Below are positions 353-12,773 of a DNA stretch of 23,294 bases, piece by piece. The notes beneath the pieces were generated by a model. That model was not told the origin of the DNA, ran no database searches, and saw only the letters and a program-made list of their open reading frames with translations. The number at the start of each line of letters is the position of its first letter. Position 1 is the first letter of the stretch. The DNA lies in contig DDSO01000062.1 in the NCBI GenBank assembly GCA_002343425.1, forward strand, positions 12,038-35,331. The letters are read 5' to 3'. The stretch comes from Brevundimonas sp. UBA2388 (GTDB lineage Bacteria > Pseudomonadota > Alphaproteobacteria > Caulobacterales > Caulobacteraceae). Both the position numbers and the translations under genes were made by a program.

Positions 353-1375
353 TCAGCCTGCAGGCTCTTCCGACACCCGGACCAGCAGCTTGCCGTCGTG
401 GTCGCCGGTGAACAAGCGGTTCAGCGAGTCCAGCGCCCCTTCAAGACCGTCGTCGACGTGGACCTTCCACTTGACCTCGCCGCTCTGCAGCCACGGGCCC
501 ATCTCGGCGACCATCTCGCGGGCGCGATGGGCGTAGTCCAGCACCAGGAAACCCTGGATGTTGAGGCGATGGGTGATGATCCGGCTGAAATTCGGCGAGG
601 GCGGCATCTTCGTGGCGTTGTAGGCCGAGATCAGGCCGCAGACCGCCATCCGGCCGTGGGTCTTCAGGCGGTTGAAGACGGCGATCATGATGTCGCCGCC
701 CACATTCTCGAAATTGAGGTCGATCCCGTCGGGCGCCAGTCGGTCAAGCGCCTCGCCCACGTCCTCATTCTTGTAGTCGACGGCGGCGTCGAAGCCGAGC
801 TCTTCGGTCAGCCAGCGGCATTTGTCGGCGCCGCCCGCGATGCCGATGACCCGGCAGCCGCGCGCCTTCGCCACCTGGCCGGCGATCGAGCCCACGGCGC
901 CGGCGGCGGCCGAGATGACCAGTGTTTCGCCCGCCTTGGCCTTGAGCACGTCGGTGACGCCGAAATAGGCCGTCATTCCGGTCATGCCGAGAACGCTGAG
1001 GTTGGCGGTCAGGGGCATGCCCGGCGCGCGGTGCACCTGCCGCAGCTCCATCTCATTGACGACGGCATAGTCCGCCCAGCCGCCTGACATGGGCGTGACC
1101 ACGTCGCCGGCGCGGAACCGGCTGGAGCGGCTTTCCTCCACCACGCCCAGGGTCAGGCCGCGCATGACGCCGCCGATCGGCACCGGCGGCAGGTAGCCCT
1201 CGGCGTCGTTCATCCAGGTGCGGTTGGTGGGGTCCAGCGACAGATAGACGGTGCGGACCAGCACCTGGGATTCGTTCAGGGCGGGAACCGGCGCCTCGAC
1301 CAGCTCCAGGTCGCCCGGCTGGATCAAACCCCGGGGCCGCTGGCGCAGCACCCACTGACGATTCACGCGAGCCAT
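353..1375 (-). CDS. NADP-dependent oxidoreductase, zinc-independent MDR (PTGR/CurA-like)
   Basis: The 340-residue product belongs to the medium-chain dehydrogenase/reductase group that reduces activated double bonds of enals and enones with NADPH, as in prostaglandin/leukotriene reductases and curcumin reductase. The N-terminal GroES-like half lacks the cysteine cluster of zinc alcohol dehydrogenases. The Rossmann part carries SAAAGAVGSIAGQVAKARG, the usual AxxGxxGxxxGQ nucleotide loop, followed by NVGGDIMIAVFNRLKTHGR, also typical of the family. I chose the ATG at 1375 (MARVNRQW) because GGAG sits 6 bp upstream. An in-frame ATG at 1381, and a longer frame starting at 1498, are possible, but the longer one would run across the sRNA terminator. 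It is probably cotranscribed with the MaoC-like gene. Confidence 0.85.
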   Translation of the reverse strand: MARVNRQWVLRQRPRGLIQPGDLELVEAPVPALNESQVLVRTVYLSLDPTNRTWMNDAEGYLPPVPIGGVMRGLTLGVVEESRSSRFRAGDVVTPMSGGWADYAVVNEMELRQVHRAPGMPLTANLSVLGMTGMTAYFGVTDVLKAKAGETLVISAAAGAVGSIAGQVAKARGCRVIGIAGGADKCRWLTEELGFDAAVDYKNEDVGEALDRLAPDGIDLNFENVGGDIMIAVFNRLKTHGRMAVCGLISAYNATKMPPSPNFSRIITHRLNIQGFLVLDYAHRAREMVAEMGPWLQSGEVKWKVHVDDGLEGALDSLNRLFTGDHDGKLLVRVSEEPAG

Positions 1376-1453
1376 GGCCATCTCCGGGTCTGTATGGGGT
1401 TTTCTTTGTGAACCCGCATAGTCTGCAAGCCGCGGCCCGCTGTCCAGCGCGCG

Positions 1454-1485
1454 AAAAGAAAAAGGCGGACCGGGAGGTCCGCCTT
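1454..1485 (-). terminator. Intrinsic terminator of the GsrN-like sRNA
   Basis: On the minus strand AAGGCGGACC, loop TCCC and GGTCCGCCTT form a perfect 10-bp stem (1485 to 1462). It is followed by a T-rich tail TTTTTCTTTT (about 1463-1454). This is a textbook rho-independent terminator. It lies about 80 bp upstream of the oxidoreductase start, so it ends an upstream minus-strand transcript that contains no convincing ORF. Confidence 0.85.
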
Positions 1486-1571
1486 GAAGTGGCATCATCG
1501 AGAATGAGGCGCGGAGGCGACAGGCCGATTTGCATCGGCCTCAAGTCGGGGGGGCGTCGTCGCCTCCGCAG
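1454..1571 (-). ncRNA. gsrN: GsrN-like general stress response small RNA
   Basis: A minus-strand transcription unit with no credible coding frame is bounded by an exact EcfG-type promoter (1602-1578) and a strong intrinsic terminator (1485-1454). The transcript would be about 118 nt. Its 5' end folds into a long stem: GCGGAGGCGAC (1569-1559) pairs perfectly with GTCGCCTCCGC (1521-1511). The stem encloses an unpaired segment with seven consecutive C residues (1554-1548) and an 8-bp hairpin AGGCCGAT-GCAA-ATCGGCCT (1541-1522). From established knowledge, GsrN of Caulobacter crescentus is a sigma-T-dependent sRNA whose exposed C-rich loop base-pairs with G-rich leaders such as that of katG and raises their translation. 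Promoter type, loop and location beside the stress locus all fit. The homology is inferred from architecture, not alignment, and the 5' end is estimated from the promoter. Confidence 0.75.
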
Positions 1572-1577
1572 GAGAAC

Positions 1578-1602
1578 AACGGCGGATCCGGCATCCGGTT
1601 CC
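1578..1602 (-). promoter_or_regulatory. EcfG-type promoter of the GsrN-like sRNA
   Basis: On the minus strand GGAAC (1602-1598) is followed after exactly 16 bp by CGTT (1581-1578). This matches the alphaproteobacterial general-stress sigma consensus GGAAC-N16/17-CGTT. Transcription should start near 1571, just before the first stem of the predicted RNA. Confidence 0.8.
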
Positions 1603-1640
1603 CGGCGTCCTGAATCTTTTTTCGCCTGGAGAGCGACCCC

Positions 1641-1666
1641 GGAACGGCGGCGCTTCGGCCCGCGTT
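1641..1666 (+). promoter_or_regulatory. EcfG-type promoter of the small membrane protein gene
   Basis: GGAAC (1641-1645), a 17-bp spacer and CGTT (1663-1666) match the EcfG consensus. The start codon is 36 bp downstream. The site lies back-to-back with the sRNA promoter, only 38 bp away. Confidence 0.75.
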
Positions 1667-1702
1667 CATGTGGGTCAGACCCATCGCTCACGGAGCCGCG
1701 CC

Positions 1703-1978
1703 ATGACCCATCCATCTCCGCACGACAAGGCCGCTGACGCGGTGCATGAAGGCCGCCCCGTCGAGGCGCAGTATGTTCGCGGCGGTGGCAAGGGTCGGCG
1801 CATCCTGACCATTCTGGTGGTTTCGCTGGCGGCCGTCGCCGTGCTGCTGCTCGGCATGTGGTTCGTCAGCCAGGGCGGCTTCGCCGAGACCAACCCCAAC
1901 ACCGGCGCCCAAGCCGTCGATGTGGAGGCGTTCGACAACACCGGCGCAGCTCCGGCTCCGACGCCCGCCCCCCAATAG
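1703..1978 (+). CDS. Small single-pass membrane protein, predicted general stress regulon member
   Basis: A 91-residue protein of unknown function. It has a basic N-terminal segment ending in GGGKGRR, one membrane helix (about residues 34-57, ILTILVVSLAAVAVLLLGMW), and an acidic, Ala/Pro-rich tail ending APAPTPAPQ that should face the periplasm by the positive-inside rule. I used the ATG at 1703 because GGAG precedes it by 7 bp; an in-frame ATG at 1670 would leave almost no leader after the promoter. The exact EcfG-type promoter upstream predicts induction by the general stress sigma factor. The gene converges on phyR and shares a bidirectional terminator with it. No family was recognised. 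Confidence 0.75.
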   Translation: MTHPSPHDKAADAVHEGRPVEAQYVRGGGKGRRILTILVVSLAAVAVLLLGMWFVSQGGFAETNPNTGAQAVDVEAFDNTGAAPAPTPAPQ

Positions 1979-2038: not shown

Positions 2039-2836
2039 CTATGCCGCCGCCTTCTGACGCGACGGGTGGAAGAACAGAGCCTGGCTGATCGCCGCCTTCA
2101 CCGTTTCCGGCTGGAAAGGCTTGGTGATCAGGAAGGTCGGCTCGGGCCGTTCGCCGGTCAGCAGGCGCTCCGGGAAGGCGGTGATGAAGATGACCGGCAC
2201 GTCGATCCGCTTGAGGATGTCCTTGACCGCGTCGATGCCCGAAGAGCCGTCGGCCAGCTGGATGTCGGCCAGAACCAGACCGGGCCGGTGACGCGCGACC
2301 GCGTCGACGGCCTCGTCATGGGTGGTGGCGGTTCCGGTGACCCGATGGCCCAGTTCCTTCACCAGACTTTCGATGTCGGCCGAGATGATCGCCTCGTCCT
2401 CGATGATCAGGACGTCGGTGGCCAGTTCGGCGTCGATGTCGGTCTGGGCTTCGGTGATCAGGCGCTCGACGTCATGGGCGTCGGCGTCGAGGATCTGGGC
2501 GGCTTCGGAAGGGGTGAAGCCCTCAAGCGCAGTCAGAAGGAAGGCCTGGCGCGAGCGCGGGGCGATGCGCAACAGCCGGCGCGAGGCGTCGTCGTCGCGT
2601 CCCTCCAGACCGCTCTTGTCTTCAAGTTGCGCGCCGGTGGTCGTCCAGATGGCGTGGAAGACATGATAGAGCGCCACGCGAGGCGTCATATCCGTCGGCA
2701 ACTGCCGCTCGCCGGCGGCGAGGGCTTCAAGCGCGACACGAACATAGTTGTCGCCCGTGGTCTGGTCCCCGGTCAGCGCGCGGGCGTAACGACGGACGTA
2801 AGGCAGATGCGGCGCAAGGCGGGCCAGCAGGCTCAT
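2039..2836 (-). CDS. phyR: General stress response anti-anti-sigma response regulator PhyR
   Basis: This 265-residue protein has the full PhyR layout: an ECF-sigma-like N-terminal domain (about residues 1-138) joined to a C-terminal receiver (about 141-255). The receiver shows the acidic pair E146/D147, phospho-acceptor D191 in LADIQLAD, T219 in FITAF and K239 in ITKPF. In the known pathway, phosphorylation opens the protein so that the sigma-like domain binds NepR and releases EcfG. The start at 2836 (MSLLARLAPHLPYVRRYA) gives the usual family length and has a GGGGAA sequence about 9 bp upstream. A longer frame to 3118 would run through the promoter. The gene is divergent from nepR-ecfG-phyK and carries its own EcfG-type promoter, so it is positively autoregulated. 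Confidence 0.97.
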   Translation of the reverse strand: MSLLARLAPHLPYVRRYARALTGDQTTGDNYVRVALEALAAGERQLPTDMTPRVALYHVFHAIWTTTGAQLEDKSGLEGRDDDASRRLLRIAPRSRQAFLLTALEGFTPSEAAQILDADAHDVERLITEAQTDIDAELATDVLIIEDEAIISADIESLVKELGHRVTGTATTHDEAVDAVARHRPGLVLADIQLADGSSGIDAVKDILKRIDVPVIFITAFPERLLTGERPEPTFLITKPFQPETVKAAISQALFFHPSRQKAAA

Positions 2837-2891
2837 ATAGGAATTCCCCGACGAAGGCGGCTCCCACCTTGGAACCGCTGCAGGCCTCGTC

Positions 2892-2916
2892 AACGTATCA
2901 AATCGGCCACGGTTCC
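2892..2916 (-). promoter_or_regulatory. EcfG-type promoter of phyR
   Basis: On the minus strand GGAAC (2916-2912), a 16-bp spacer and CGTT (2895-2892) match the EcfG consensus exactly. This leaves a leader of about 50 nt before the phyR ATG at 2836. Confidence 0.85.
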
Positions 2917-2957: not shown

Positions 2958-2982
2958 GGAACCGGGCTTGCGGGGCGGCGTT
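2958..2982 (+). promoter_or_regulatory. EcfG-type promoter of nepR-ecfG-phyK
   Basis: GGAAC (2958-2962), a 16-bp spacer and CGTT (2979-2982) match the EcfG consensus exactly. Transcription would begin near 2989, about 38 nt before the nepR ATG. With the phyR promoter it forms a divergent pair with 41 bp between the two -35 elements. Confidence 0.85.
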
Positions 2983-3026: not shown

Positions 3027-3224
3027 ATGACAGATAAATCCAATCCCCCGGTCAAGCCTCCCAAGGGTGGCGCAAACCTGGAGGAATCCCGGCTTCGGCA
3101 GCAGGCGATCGGCGTCAAACTGCGTCATATGTTCGATGAGGTCGTGAACGAGCCGGTTCCCGACGAATTTCTCGACATCCTGCGCCGGGCCGATGAGCGT
3201 TCCTCCGGAGGGGGCGGCGAATGA
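3027..3224 (+). CDS. nepR: Anti-sigma factor NepR
   Basis: NepR is a small anti-sigma factor that clamps EcfG in unstressed cells and is titrated by phosphorylated PhyR. The 65-residue product has the conserved two-helix core IGVKLRHMFDEVVNEPVPDE (residues 29-48), followed by FLDILRRAD, flanked by disordered Pro/Lys-rich and Gly-rich ends. The ATG at 3027 gives a typical NepR length but has only a weak ribosome site; a GTG at 3009 in the same frame would add six residues. The stop overlaps the ecfG start in ATGA, so anti-sigma and sigma factor are translationally coupled, which would keep their ratio fixed. Confidence 0.93.
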   Translation: MTDKSNPPVKPPKGGANLEESRLRQQAIGVKLRHMFDEVVNEPVPDEFLDILRRADERSSGGGGE

Positions 3225-3832
3225 GCGGCGCCTCCAGCGCGCCGCCCAAGCCGCCTTCAGCCGACGACGACGCCTTCAAGCGCGAGCTGGTCGTGCTGAT
3301 CCCGCATCTGCGGGCTTTCGCGCGGACCCTGACCGGCGATCCGACCGCGGCCGATGATCTGGCGCAGGACGCCATGATGAAGGCCTGGGATGCCCGCGCC
3401 AGCTATCAGATGGGCACCAATATGAAGGCGTGGACCTTCATGATCCTGCGCAACCAGTTCTACTCCGAAAAGCGCCGCTCGTGGCGCCAGACGCAGCTGG
3501 ACCAGGAGGCCGCCGAGCGCACCCTGGTGGCTGTGGATGATCCGGAATCGCCCGTGGCGCTGGACGAACTGCGTCTTGCCCTGAACACCCTGCCCGAAGA
3601 GCAGCGCGAGGCGCTGATCCTCGTCGGCGCCGGCGGCTTCGCCTACGAGGAGGCCGCCGAAATATGCCAGTGCGCGGTCGGCACGGTGAAGAGCCGGGTC
3701 TCGCGGGCTCGCAAGGCCCTGCAGGCGACGCTGGATAAGGGCGGCTATGCGCGCGACGGGCGCGCCGCCGGAGATGCCATGCGGTCCATCCTGGCCGCCG
3801 CGGACCGTCTGAGCAGCGTCAGGCAAGGCTGA
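3221..3832 (+). CDS. ecfG: General stress ECF sigma factor EcfG (sigma-T type)
   Basis: A 203-residue ECF sigma factor. Region 2 spans about residues 22-90 ([20 protein letters not shown], then [17 protein letters not shown], the core-binding and -10 recognition part). Region 4 spans about 113-170, with [17 protein letters not shown] and the helix-turn-helix [14 protein letters not shown] that reads the GGAAC -35 element. Its position between nepR and a PhyK-like kinase, and opposite phyR, identifies it as the EcfG/SigT stress sigma. It starts in an ATGA overlap with nepR and ends 4 bp before phyK. Five matching promoters in this window, including its own, imply autoactivation. Confidence 0.95.
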
Positions 3833-3836
3833 CGCT

Positions 3837-5621
3837 GTGGTCCGGTTCGGCCGAGCGCTCGCAAGGGGACTGGGAGGGGGTCCGAGGGCCCAGAGATTCC
3901 AGGGCATCCGCTTCCGTCTGGGTCTCTGGCTGGCCATCGCCCTGCTGCCCCTGCTGATCCTTGGCGGCTTTCAGGCCGAGTCCGCGTTCCGGGCCCAGGA
4001 CGCCGAACGCCGCTCCGACCTGCAGCGGGCCGCCGAACGGAGCGCCGCCAGCGCCAAGGCACGCCTCGACAGCACCGGCATCCTGCTGATGGCCTTGAGG
4101 CCAGAAGCCCTTGAGATGTTTTGCCAGCCGCGGCTGAGCGATCTCGTCGGCCGTCTGGACGGTCTGGACGGGCTTGCGCGGTTGACGGCGACCGGCGCTA
4201 CGGCCTGCGCCTCAGACAACCTCGCTTCAACGCCTCCGGCCTGGTTGACCCGGGCGCAATCCAGCCCCTGGTTTGACCGACTTCGCGCGGGCGAAGGCAC
4301 CGTGCTTGCGCGCGCCCCGGCCGGCGTCGGCCACCCGGCTGGGCTGATCGTCGCGATCCGGCTGGAGCGACCCATGGGCCGGTTCGACGGCGCCATGGTC
4401 GCCCTGATCCCCCTGTCCAGCCTGCAGCCCGACATCGACGATCCGTCCTTGCCCGAAGGCTCGCAGGCGGCGCTGACCGATGCGGACGGGCGACTTCTGA
4501 CGGCAACCGACATCGACGCCTTCACCTTGACGCGTGGCGAGTCGTTGACCGGCTGGGTCCAGCGGGCGCGCGCCGGCGCCTCGGCGATCTTCGAGGCCGA
4601 CGACGCCGCCGGCCGACATCGGGTCTATGCCGGGGCGGCCCTGGCCGGACGGGATGTCTACGCCCTGCTATCGGCGCCGGCGCCGGGGCTGCTGTCCTGG
4701 GCGCGGCTGAACCCGGTCGGCGCGCTGTTCATGCCGCTGCTGGCCTGGCTTCTGGCCTTCACCGCCGTGATGTGGGTCAGCGAGCGGATCGTGGTGCGCT
4801 GGCTGAACTATCTGGAGCGGGTGGCGTCCATCTATGCGAAGGGCCGGTTCTCGGTGCGTCCGGTCCAGGCCATGAACGCCCCGGCCGAGATCCGCGTGCT
4901 GGCGCGAACGCTGGACGAGCTGGCCGAATCCATCGTCACCCGCGACGCCGCCCTGACCGCTTCGCTGGAGGAAAAGGACGCGCTGATGCGCGAGATCCAC
5001 CACCGGGTGAAGAACAATCTTCAGATCATTTCGTCCCTGCTGTCGATGCAGCAGCGGGCCCTGACCGATCCGGCGTCCAAGGCGGCGGTCGGCGATACGC
5101 GCCAGCGGATTTCGGCGCTCGCCCTGATCTATCGCACCCTCTACCAGAGCGACGACCTGCGCTATGCCGACGCCCGCGTCTTCCTGACCGAACTGGTCGG
5201 GCAACTGGTCGCCAGCGAAACGGGGCGCGGTCACCTCGTCACCTCGTCGGTCGAGGCGGACTCGCTGGTCGTCGATCCTGACAAGCTGGCGCCGCTGGCG
5301 CTGTGGCTGGTCGAGGCCGTGACCAACGCCCAGAAGCATGCTTTCAGCGGACGCGGCGGCGATCTGAAGGTCCGGTTCTTCGTGCACGGCGAGACGAGCA
5401 TTCTGGAGGTCCAGGACGACGGACCAGGCGTCAGCGAGACCTTCCGTGCGGGCGTGGGGCGCACCCTGATGGGCGCCTTCGCCAAACAACTGCGAGGGTC
5501 CGTCGAACTGGTCCCGGCCGAAGGCGGGGGCATGATCGCCCGCATGACCTTCGCCACGCCGGAGGCGGTCGTGCCGACGGACCCCGCCGACCTTGGAACC
5601 GGCGCCGCGCCGCGACGTTGA
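3837..5621 (+). CDS. phyK: PhyK-like membrane sensor histidine kinase of the general stress response
   Basis: A 594-residue sensor kinase expected to phosphorylate PhyR. Order of parts: cytoplasmic N-terminus; membrane helix at about 28-45; periplasmic sensor at about 46-290; second helix at about 293-314; HAMP-like linker at about 316-368; HisKA_2 dimerisation segment with [11 protein letters not shown] (His388/His389, the latter before the RVKNN motif); and an HATPase domain with N497 in [11 protein letters not shown] and the G1 motif DDGPG at 527-531. This HisKA_2 type is the one used by PhyK kinases. The start is GTG at 3837, 4 bp after the ecfG stop, with AGGCAAGG about 8 bp upstream. 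The last 27 bp contain an EcfG-type promoter for the next gene, so the C-terminal codons carry two signals. The sensed ligand is unknown. Confidence 0.88.
5595..5619 (+). promoter_or_regulatory. EcfG-type promoter inside the phyK 3' end, for the entericidin-like gene
   Basis: GGAAC (5595-5599), a 16-bp spacer and CGTT (5616-5619) match the EcfG consensus exactly. The site ends 2 bp before the end of the phyK stop codon. The lipoprotein ATG is 43 bp downstream. Confidence 0.82.
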
Positions 5622-5964: not shown

Positions 5965-7623
5965 ATGACGGCTACCAAAGAGACACGGGCAGAACCGGGC
6001 CTGAGAACCGTGGTGGCGGCCTCTGCCACCGGTACGGCCTTCGAATGGTACGACTTCTTCGTCTTCGGGGCCTTGGCCACTGTCATAGCGCGGCATTTCT
6101 TCGCCGAGGCGGGTGAAACCGTCGCCTACATCCTGGCGCTGCTGACCTTCGGGCTCGGCTTCGTGGTCAGGCCACTGGGGGCGCTGGTGTTCGGCTGGTT
6201 CGGCGACCGGACCGGGCGCAAGACCACCTTTCTGGTCACCATCACCCTGATGGGTGTCGCCACCGTCGCTATCGGCCTGCTGCCCGACTACAACCAGATC
6301 GGCATCGCCGCCCCCATCCTGCTGCTGGTCATGCGCATGCTGCAGGGCTTTGCCCTGGGCGGTGAGTACGGTGGGGCGGTCGTCTATGTCGCCGAACACG
6401 CCCCGGCCAAGAAGCGTGGCCTGATGACCGGCTGGATCCAGACCACCGCCGCACTGGGCCTGATCGGAGCCCTGTCGGTGATCCTGATCACCCGCGCCAT
6501 CGTCGGGACCGAGGCCTTTGACGAATGGGGCTGGCGCATTCCCTTCCTTCTGTCCGCCCTTCTGCTGGGTGTCTCGCTCTGGATCCGGCTCAAGCTGAAC
6601 GAAAGCCCGGCCTATCGCCGGATGGAGGCCGAGGGCGGTGAACGCCGCGCCCCGTTCAAGGAGGCCTTCGGCACCTGGCGCAACGGCCGGTTCGTCCTGA
6701 TCGCCCTGTTCGGGATCATGATCGCCCAGGGCGCCGTCTGGTACTGCGGCTATTTCTACGCCCGCTTCTTCATGGAACGGGTGCTGAGGGTCGACACCAA
6801 CACCATCGATCTGGTGATGCTGGCGGTGACCGCCGTCTCGGCCTTCCTCTATGTCTTCTTCGGCTGGATTTCGGACCGGATCGGGCGCAAGCCGGTCATG
6901 CTGTTCGGCATGATCCTGGCCCTGATCGCCATCTTCCCGGGCTTCCAGGCCCTGACCCGGGCGGCCAATCCCGCCCTCGCCGAAGCCCAGGCCTCATCGC
7001 CGATCGTCGTCATGGCCGATCCCGCCACCTGCGCCCTGCAGTTCGATCCGATCGGCAAGACCGCCTTCGCCAGCTCCTGCGATATCGCCAAGAACGTGCT
7101 GTCCAATGCGGGTATTTCGTACAGCAATGTCGAGGCCGAGCCCGGCTCGGTCGCCGTGGTCCGGATCGGCAGCATCGAGATCCCTTCGGTCGAGGGCGAG
7201 GGCATGGACCCGGCGGCGCTGAAGGCCGCGCGGGCCGGTGTCGAGACCCGACTCAAGGCCGCCCTTCTGGAGGCGGGCTACCCCGCCGTAGCCGATCCCG
7301 AGCGGATCAACCTGCCGATGGTGTTCGGCATATTGATGATCTTCATGGTCGCGGCCACGGCCCTGTATGGACCCCAGGCGGCCGCCCTGGTCGAGCTGTT
7401 CCCGACGCGGGTGCGCTACACGGCCATGAGCCTGCCCTATCATGTCGGCACGGGTTGGGTCGGCGGCATGCTTCCCGCGGCCAGTTTCGCCCTCGTGGCC
7501 TGGTCGGGGAACATCTATTTCGGCCTCTGGTACACCCTCGCCTTCACGGCGGTCGCCGTCGTGGTCGCCCTGATCTGGCTGCCGGAGACAAAGGGGCGCG
7601 ATATGGACGCGATCGGGTCCTGA
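5965..7623 (+). CDS. MFS transporter of the metabolite:H+ symporter (MHS) family with a large inserted segment
   Basis: A 552-residue transporter related to the proline/betaine, alpha-ketoglutarate and citrate proton symporters. Family marks seen: TGTAFEWYDFFVFG in the first helix, the loop 2-3 signature GWFGDRTGRK (residues 77-86), RMLQGFALGGEYGGA in helix 4, and a second cytoplasmic signature GWISDRIGRKP in the C-terminal half. MHS proteins are usually about 430-500 residues. Here roughly residues 334-447 form an extra, mainly hydrophilic stretch between helices, with two cysteines (CALQFDP and SSCDIAK). The ATG at 5965 follows GGGGAGG by about 5 bp. The next gene begins 3 bp after the stop. 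The substrate cannot be predicted. Confidence 0.88.
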   Translation: MTATKETRAEPGLRTVVAASATGTAFEWYDFFVFGALATVIARHFFAEAGETVAYILALLTFGLGFVVRPLGALVFGWFGDRTGRKTTFLVTITLMGVATVAIGLLPDYNQIGIAAPILLLVMRMLQGFALGGEYGGAVVYVAEHAPAKKRGLMTGWIQTTAALGLIGALSVILITRAIVGTEAFDEWGWRIPFLLSALLLGVSLWIRLKLNESPAYRRMEAEGGERRAPFKEAFGTWRNGRFVLIALFGIMIAQGAVWYCGYFYARFFMERVLRVDTNTIDLVMLAVTAVSAFLYVFFGWISDRIGRKPVMLFGMILALIAIFPGFQALTRAANPALAEAQASSPIVVMADPATCALQFDPIGKTAFASSCDIAKNVLSNAGISYSNVEAEPGSVAVVRIGSIEIPSVEGEGMDPAALKAARAGVETRLKAALLEAGYPAVADPERINLPMVFGILMIFMVAATALYGPQAAALVELFPTRVRYTAMSLPYHVGTGWVGGMLPAASFALVAWSGNIYFGLWYTLAFTAVAVVVALIWLPETKGRDMDAIGS

Positions 7624-11180: not shown

Positions 11181-12550
<1,370 letters not shown>

Positions 12551-12552
12551 CT

Positions 12553-12720
12553 TTTCGTCATCCTCCGGCCAGCGGCGAAGCCGCGCAGACCGGGGGACCC
12601 AGCGGCGCGCGAGAGCGCGACACTGTCGAGAGCGCCATCGCTGGACACAGCGGTGTTTCGCCGCGGTCGCGGCGCCGCTGGGTCCCCCGGTCTCGCTTCG
12701 CTCGCCGGAGGATGACGAAA
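12553..12720. repeat. Nested inverted-repeat element (BIME/REP-like) between obgE and nadD
   Basis: Outer arms TTTCGTCATCCTCCGG (12553-12568) and CCGGAGGATGACGAAA (12705-12720) are perfect complements over 16 bp. Inner arms ACCGGGGGACCCAGCGGCGC (12589-12608) and GCGCCGCTGGGTCCCCCGGT (12672-12691) are perfect over 20 bp. The 168-bp unit starts 2 bp after the obgE stop. It resembles the dispersed palindromic intergenic elements common in alphaproteobacteria and would fold into a very stable RNA hairpin. Confidence 0.85.
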
Positions 12721-12773
12721 GCATAAGGGTGCGCATACAGGCGACATCGATAAAGCGCCGTGTTAGCTCCCTT

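Follow-up and report, generated by a model that had tools for sequence, protein, structure and literature searches.

Genes and features of the locus

The window (the whole stretch of 23,294 nt of Brevundimonas DNA that was analysed) contains a gene for a small RNA on the minus strand, identified below as gsrN. One of its neighbours is a gene for a PF16884 oxidoreductase; on the opposite side lie a small gene, phyR, nepR, ecfG and phyK. The features of this region are as follows.

1462..1569, minus strand: gsrN small RNA, about 106 nt (RF01529 match, fold z -6.6; predicted 5' end at 1567-1569)
1578..1602, minus strand: EcfG (sigma-T) promoter GGAAC-N16-CGTT, exact match, directly upstream of gsrN
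1559..1569, minus strand: stem 1, 5' arm, 11 bp, partner 1511-1521
1542..1558, minus strand: C-rich loop GACGCCCCCCCGACUUG, unpaired in the centroid, putative target-recognition loop
1522..1541, minus strand: hairpin 2, 8 bp
1511..1521, minus strand: stem 1, 3' arm (fold and covariation)
1492..1509, minus strand: conserved 3' linker CCUCAUUCUCGAUGAUGC, 18 nt, mostly single-stranded, with a weak small hairpin predicted within
1462..1485, minus strand: intrinsic terminator hairpin, 10-bp stem (1485-1462), then TTTCTTTT; U-rich tail to about 1453
1641..1666, plus strand: divergent EcfG-type promoter, exact, before the small membrane-protein gene
1703..1978, plus strand: small gene, 91 aa, one hydrophobic (membrane) segment by eye
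2039..2842, minus strand: phyR, anti-anti-sigma response regulator (NF006623, 380 bits, cut-off 240)
2892..2916, minus strand: EcfG-type site before phyR
2958..2982, plus strand: EcfG-type site before nepR-ecfG
3027..3224, plus strand: nepR, anti-sigma factor (NF051865, 110 bits, cut-off 100)
3221..3832, plus strand: ecfG/sigT, general stress sigma factor (ECF sigma-70 by TIGR02937 and Pfam)
3837..5621, plus strand: phyK, sensor kinase (NF051872, 895 bits, cut-off 750)
5595..5619, plus strand: EcfG-type site at the phyK end

The window holds five sites of the form GGAAC-N15-18-CGTT, compared with an expectation of 0.52; none of 100 shuffles reached five. The name ecfG was given because the gene overlaps nepR; no closer model was above its cut-off among the matches listed. 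The 91-aa protein has no match to a Pfam or NCBIfam family, and its gene looks like an unnamed member of the general stress response. By eye, a similar start sequence was also seen behind an EcfG-type promoter beside phyR in the eight genomes that have a rebuilt gsrN and in which katG was undetected.

Identification of the RNA gene

The Rfam covariance model RF01529 (CC3552) matches 1463-1567 of the minus strand end to end (model positions 1-106 of 106; 105.1 bits, cut-off 50), and one gsrN copy was found in the source genome. The first-pass annotation of this DNA had proposed a GsrN-like sRNA under EcfG control, to be checked with a covariance model; this proposal is borne out, and on stronger grounds than before, by the family match, promoter, synteny and covariation. 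On the same four grounds the element is taken as the gsrN ortholog of a Brevundimonas with a probability of roughly 0.9, jointly with the mechanism proposed below. RF01529/CC3552 is a family that we take to be ccna_R0081/gsrN, an equation supported by its match in Caulobacter vibrioides, the length of 106 positions, the six-C loop of C. vibrioides record L085, and a complementary target. The latter is a published co-purified target site, UCAAGUCGGGGC (Table 1 of PMC5869019), which is exactly complementary to CCCCGACUUGA of this RNA at 11 of its 12 nt.

The gene is thus a real gene of a known kind and no new RNA. Homologs of gsrN in Brevundimonas, typically near the EcfG locus, have already been reported (PMC5869019) and the family is modelled in Rfam, hence the finding is already known; what the analysis settles is an unannotated gene, with its promoter motif, structure, orthology and synteny. 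The gene had been described as hidden, which holds insofar as frames of the oxidoreductase cross it, but not for Rfam, which recognises it, nor for the literature.

The RNA shares with the sigma-T-dependent C. crescentus GsrN (ccna_R0081; PMC5869019) the length of about 106 nt, the EcfG promoter, 5' stem, C-rich loop, inner hairpin, exposed 3' region and terminator. It differs in the loop, which has a run of seven C in place of six, and in position, since the C. crescentus gene is described as distal to the EcfG locus, whereas gsrN here is at that locus. The linker is shorter in the C. vibrioides records (L085, L155) than CCUCAUUCUCGAUGAUGC of this RNA. From the RF01529 (CC3552) family it differs by ordinary sequence variation only, and the likeness extends over the full length. 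A putative GsrN of Rhizobiaceae likewise has an EcfG promoter and a place beside the EcfG locus according to the published description (PMC5869019, Figure 9 legend). The matches of our order search are confined to the Caulobacter family.

An alternative reading takes the region for the 5' end of the oxidoreductase coding sequence, or for a structure that arose by chance. Open frames do span it on the minus strand (353..1498 and 1053..1715), and a third crosses it on the plus strand (1408..1737). In the 353..1498 frame, the oxidoreductase domain PF16884 does not start before residue 47, so that the likely start of this gene is the ATG at 1375 or 1381; the long frames across gsrN appear mechanical, and the earlier statement that they read across an RNA without a credible ORF agrees with this. 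Single-base length differences of the RNA among relatives, the Rfam match, the covariation, and the EcfG promoter also speak against a coding or chance origin, which we consider hardly conceivable.

Structure and covariation

The gsrN sequence (1463-1567, minus strand) folds at -53.8 kcal/mol compared to a shuffle mean of -33.5 kcal/mol (z = -6.6), and equal stability was reached by none of 200 shuffles. Stem 1 has 9 bp in this fold, and 11 bp (1569-1559 with 1521-1511) when two upstream bases (1569-1568) are included; with these, the 11-bp 5' stem of the first-pass annotation is recovered, and its 8-bp inner hairpin was found at 1541-1522. The EcfG promoter that it had called exact was confirmed at 1578-1602, and its terminator is strong, with a 10-bp stem at 1485-1462. 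The C7 run (1554-1548), which it had read as single-stranded, is unpaired in the centroid but partly paired in the minimum-energy fold.

Covariation was examined in an alignment of 51 rows (50 distinct), comprising 43 of 44 non-redundant sequences (L094 was omitted, as its end ran beyond the locus) and eight hand-chosen sequences of the C. vibrioides type. In the 50 distinct rows, 97.8% of the cells across both helices are paired, and 99.8% for stem 1. Changes on both sides were found in 9 of 19 pairs (stem 1, two of 11; hairpin 2, seven of eight), compared to a shuffle mean of 4.6 and reached by one of 500 shuffles; the cells with such changes number 68 against a shuffle mean of 19.3 (none of 500), with slid controls at 7 or fewer, and the shuffle statistics ignore the kinship among rows. 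Further pair types amount to 19 against 16.2 in shuffles, a value reached by 12 of 500.

The architecture of 5' stem, C-rich loop and inner hairpin is supported by covariation. Compensatory changes in the 11-bp stem, whose lack in related genomes would have counted against the RNA, were found in two pairs; eight of its 11 pairs are invariant, hence uninformative, and the invariance of stem 1 and loop says little because some of the rows had been selected with a pattern in which part of both is already set.

Distribution and divergent copies

RF01529 was matched in 84 of 101 Brevundimonas genomes at E <= 1e-3, with 80 exceeding the cut-off. GGAAC precedes the gene in all 84, with an exact -10 element in 63 (24 of the best 30 genus loci and 39 of the other 54) and another -10 in 21. 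In those 24 loci the EcfG element begins 35 nt ahead of the RNA, and the remaining six of the best 30 have GGAACC and an altered -10. Of the 14 control genomes, C. vibrioides alone matches at E <= 1e-3; at E <= 1 three further genomes match, all below the cut-off. A search of the order gave matches in 52 of 299 genomes (50 over the cut-off), all 52 in the same family; among the genomes listed, nine of the same family and 11 of other families were not matched by RF01529, and neither were 227 further genomes in this search. By named records (at least 120 stretches), the gene occurs in Caulobacter, Brevundimonas, Phenylobacterium and unclassified relatives.

Among the matches listed, 116 of 120 stretches have a GGAAC no more than 45 nt upstream. 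Two of the four exceptions, L130 and L166, are truncated at a contig or stretch end or lack GGAAC; the other two are Halomonas rows (L129, L163) that have no GGAAC element, read as coding by eye, and were left out. Weak second RF01529 matches in two genomes (G039, G056; L315, L316) were also read as coding sequence by eye; such second matches occur in G370 and G375 too.

A loss of gsrN in the remaining 17 genus genomes, tracking a loss of katG, was considered and rejected. A laxer RF01529 search of these genomes gave no match above the cut-off, and a phyR search together with a scan for EcfG promoters revealed gsrN-like genes in 12 of the 17, eight of them coinciding with sub-threshold RF01529 matches. 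The 84 genomes with a family-model match and these 12, whose divergent copies were recognised by promoter and position beside phyR, bring the genomes with a gsrN-like gene to 96 of the 101; the copies of G024, G031, G069 and G087 were assigned by promoter, position, and sequence by eye. The weakest divergent copies (G024, G088) are without the C-rich loop. In G014 and G041 phyR is present and no gsrN-like gene was found; in G006, G074 and G095 the phyR search gave receiver-domain matches only. Eight similar genomes in which katG was undetected (G007, G031, G043, G045, G051, G069, G075, G087) have a rebuilt 5' domain whose C-run is short, and retain TCTCGATGATGC; the same rebuilt domain with TCTCGATGATGC is found in G059 and G070, in which katG is present.

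katG as a candidate target

The C. crescentus katG mRNA pairs through its first 7 nt with seven nucleotides of the GsrN loop, including four of the six C of this loop (PMC5869019), and the first-pass annotation had pointed to katG activation through the C-rich loop. The leaders of katG were scanned from -150 to +30 for exact loop complements. The 30 Brevundimonas leaders examined are the best 30 of 88 genus genomes with a katG match (katG was found in 88 of 101), less L053, which has no anchor motif, plus G012; start codons were set by rule, and that of L032 appears one ATG too far in. An exact complement of at least 7 nt was found in one of these leaders (L040, CTCAAGTCG), and in two of 10 leaders from two other genera: GUCGGGG at -39 in two genomes of the second genus, presumably Caulobacter (L329, L330). 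This fits the published site and serves as a positive control for the scan. By the 30 leaders examined, katG activation is not supported for Brevundimonas.

An HMM search gave no katG for the source genome, and neither the body nor the leader of the gene was found in the assembly. A real loss of katG was rejected, as contig C159 opens with the last 21 katG codons (G000:C159:1-66, L319); the gene body falls in an assembly gap. An OxyR-like gene follows the katG end on this contig; the corresponding regulator of G012 scores 200 bits to OxyR, below the cut-off.

That GsrN acts on katG in Brevundimonas as published for C. crescentus (PMC5869019) is, in our estimate, unlikely, although there is evidence to favour it. 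At least the 3' end of katG is present in the source organism, and by eye many Brevundimonas leaders show a short motif, CAGGGGC or CAGGGCG, some 51-55 nt ahead of the start codon; shorter pairings, e.g. through CAGGGGC at about -52, are possible. Further, model-detected gsrN and katG co-occur above expectation (79/5/9/8 in 101 genomes; Fisher p = 1e-4), but this stems largely from eight similar genomes, with divergent gsrN scored as absent and the source genome scored as katG-less. As 12 of the 17 unmatched genomes have a gsrN-like gene, the association concerns divergence, not absence.

Apart from the rarity of complements, the katG leader of G012 pairs at -19.6 kcal/mol against a shuffle mean of -21.7 kcal/mol, with 76% of 200 shuffles equal or better. 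Two genomes (G090 and G073; 100% and 99% complete) keep gsrN over the cut-off with katG undetected, and the same holds for five of another 15 genomes of the family, all of them 99-100% complete; katG is therefore not the sole reason for keeping this RNA. Caution is due before the katG story is extended to Brevundimonas. Among the titles listed for the literature searched on GsrN and on EcfG of Brevundimonas, none concerned GsrN targets in this genus.

In G090, a catalase-family frame (L322, 1867-3390; HPII model, 427 bits, cut-off 1102) lies beside an OxyR-like gene, and in G073 an AhpC-like frame (L323, 2802-3356; 118 bits, cut-off 272) has this place; the peroxide enzyme next to the OxyR-like regulator has apparently been swapped in these two genomes.

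The conserved 3' linker

Motifs were counted in the 96 gsrN-like genus sequences, taking at each locus the GGAAC site in best agreement with the motifs, so that the counts lean upward. The linker CCUCAUUCUCGAUGAUGC (CCTCATTCTCGATGATGC) is exact in 78 of 96 and the loop motif CCCCGACUUGA (CCCCGACTTGA) in 54, while GACGCC-C(4+)-GAC is found in 72 and a bare C5 run in 92. Of the four motifs counted in this genus sample, the bare C-run alone is more conserved than the linker, which at least equals the flanked loop; among the published GsrN homologs, the 5' C-rich loop is given as the most conserved part (PMC5869019).

The C-rich loop and the linker vary independently of each other. In G024 (L211) the linker core TTCTCGATGATGC is kept and the C5 run is absent; in G083 (L214) and G047 (L215) the 5' domain is kept and the linker is absent from its usual place. 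These three loci are natural cases for separating the loop and linker modules.

One reading is that the linker is a second target-recognition site, and that the RNA consists of two independently evolving modules. It would account for the more frequent identity of the linker than of the flanked loop, for the three loci with one module each, and for the eight katG-undetected genomes in which the 5' domain is rebuilt and the linker core is intact. In C. crescentus, 67 genes or regions were co-purified with GsrN, of which 32 are predicted to pair via the loop and 27 via the 3' exposed region (PMC5869019). Against it stand the wider spread of the bare C5 run, and the report that nucleotides 59-106 are dispensable for peroxide survival of C. 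crescentus (PMC5869019). Moreover, a conserved target of the linker was searched for and none was found, and the conservation could also be explained by Hfq binding or cleavage. We place this second-site reading somewhat short of an even chance.

The other reading, to which we give close to an even chance, is that the linker is kept for contact with a protein (Hfq) or for RNase cleavage, and not for pairing. An exact conservation over 18 nt exceeds the usual need of an Hfq contact or a cleavage site, which counts against it, as does the statement of a 2024 Hfq study that no role of Hfq in GsrN activity had been observed (PMC11005374). In its favour, full-length GsrN is stabilised by Hfq, and GsrN ends have been mapped in or close to the linker, around nt 53, 54 and 64 (PMC5869019).

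The glmS mRNA was considered as a target of the linker and rejected. The 12-mer complement GCATCATCGAGA falls in glmS (TIGR01135) in 11 of 13 genus genomes that carry it (10 by flank comparison, G006 by position), and there it sits within HNGIIEN, a conserved motif of the protein. The synonymous codon AAT, which would extend the pairing, occurs in 62 of 100 rows (AAC in 38), and also in five of seven genomes without the usual linker or gene (G006, G047, G057, G067, G074, G083, G095). The target was rejected because the protein motif is conserved and the codon choice does not follow the loss of the linker. For the loop complement CAAGTCGGGGG, similar flanks were seen in one pair only among 17 non-gsrN sites (L297, L303), and the site of this pair reads by eye as a phosphatase motif.

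Proposed mechanism

Under general stress, PhyK and PhyR would release EcfG from NepR, and EcfG would then start transcription at the gsrN promoter (1578-1602), yielding an RNA of about 106 nt that ends with the terminator (1485-1462); the EcfG dependence is predicted from the promoter. The 5' domain, with its closed stem, C-rich loop and small hairpin, would present the loop to G-rich stretches of mRNAs, and the pairing, presumed for this species, may alter their translation or stability. In C. crescentus, GsrN is cut near nt 53 to a stable 5' form that carries the activity, and the 5' half suffices for peroxide survival (PMC5869019); processing to a stable 5' form may be expected in this species as well.

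As a more speculative extension, with the odds leaning against it, GsrN would consist of two modules, and its ancestral task in the Caulobacteraceae would not have been katG activation: the katG site would be recent, around C. vibrioides, and the linker an older and separately kept recognition element, with targets that perhaps include an undefined osmotic-stress target. The role of the linker is the one point of interest of this locus, and the comparison suggests looking for further GsrN targets via the linker and via the lineages that lost a module.

Further observations in the window

The exact EcfG-type promoter at 5595-5619 (plus strand) lies about 350 nt ahead of a gene for an MFS symporter (5965-7623, plus strand), for which the best models, TIGR00883 and ProP, are both below the cut-off; the gene possibly encodes a stress-induced transporter. 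A long imperfect palindrome is located at about 12550-12735 (fold z -9.6 for 12540-12750). Its kin of about 170 nt are found on five contigs of the source genome, its own contig included, and in many places in G012, and the palindrome is a member of a dispersed repeat family.
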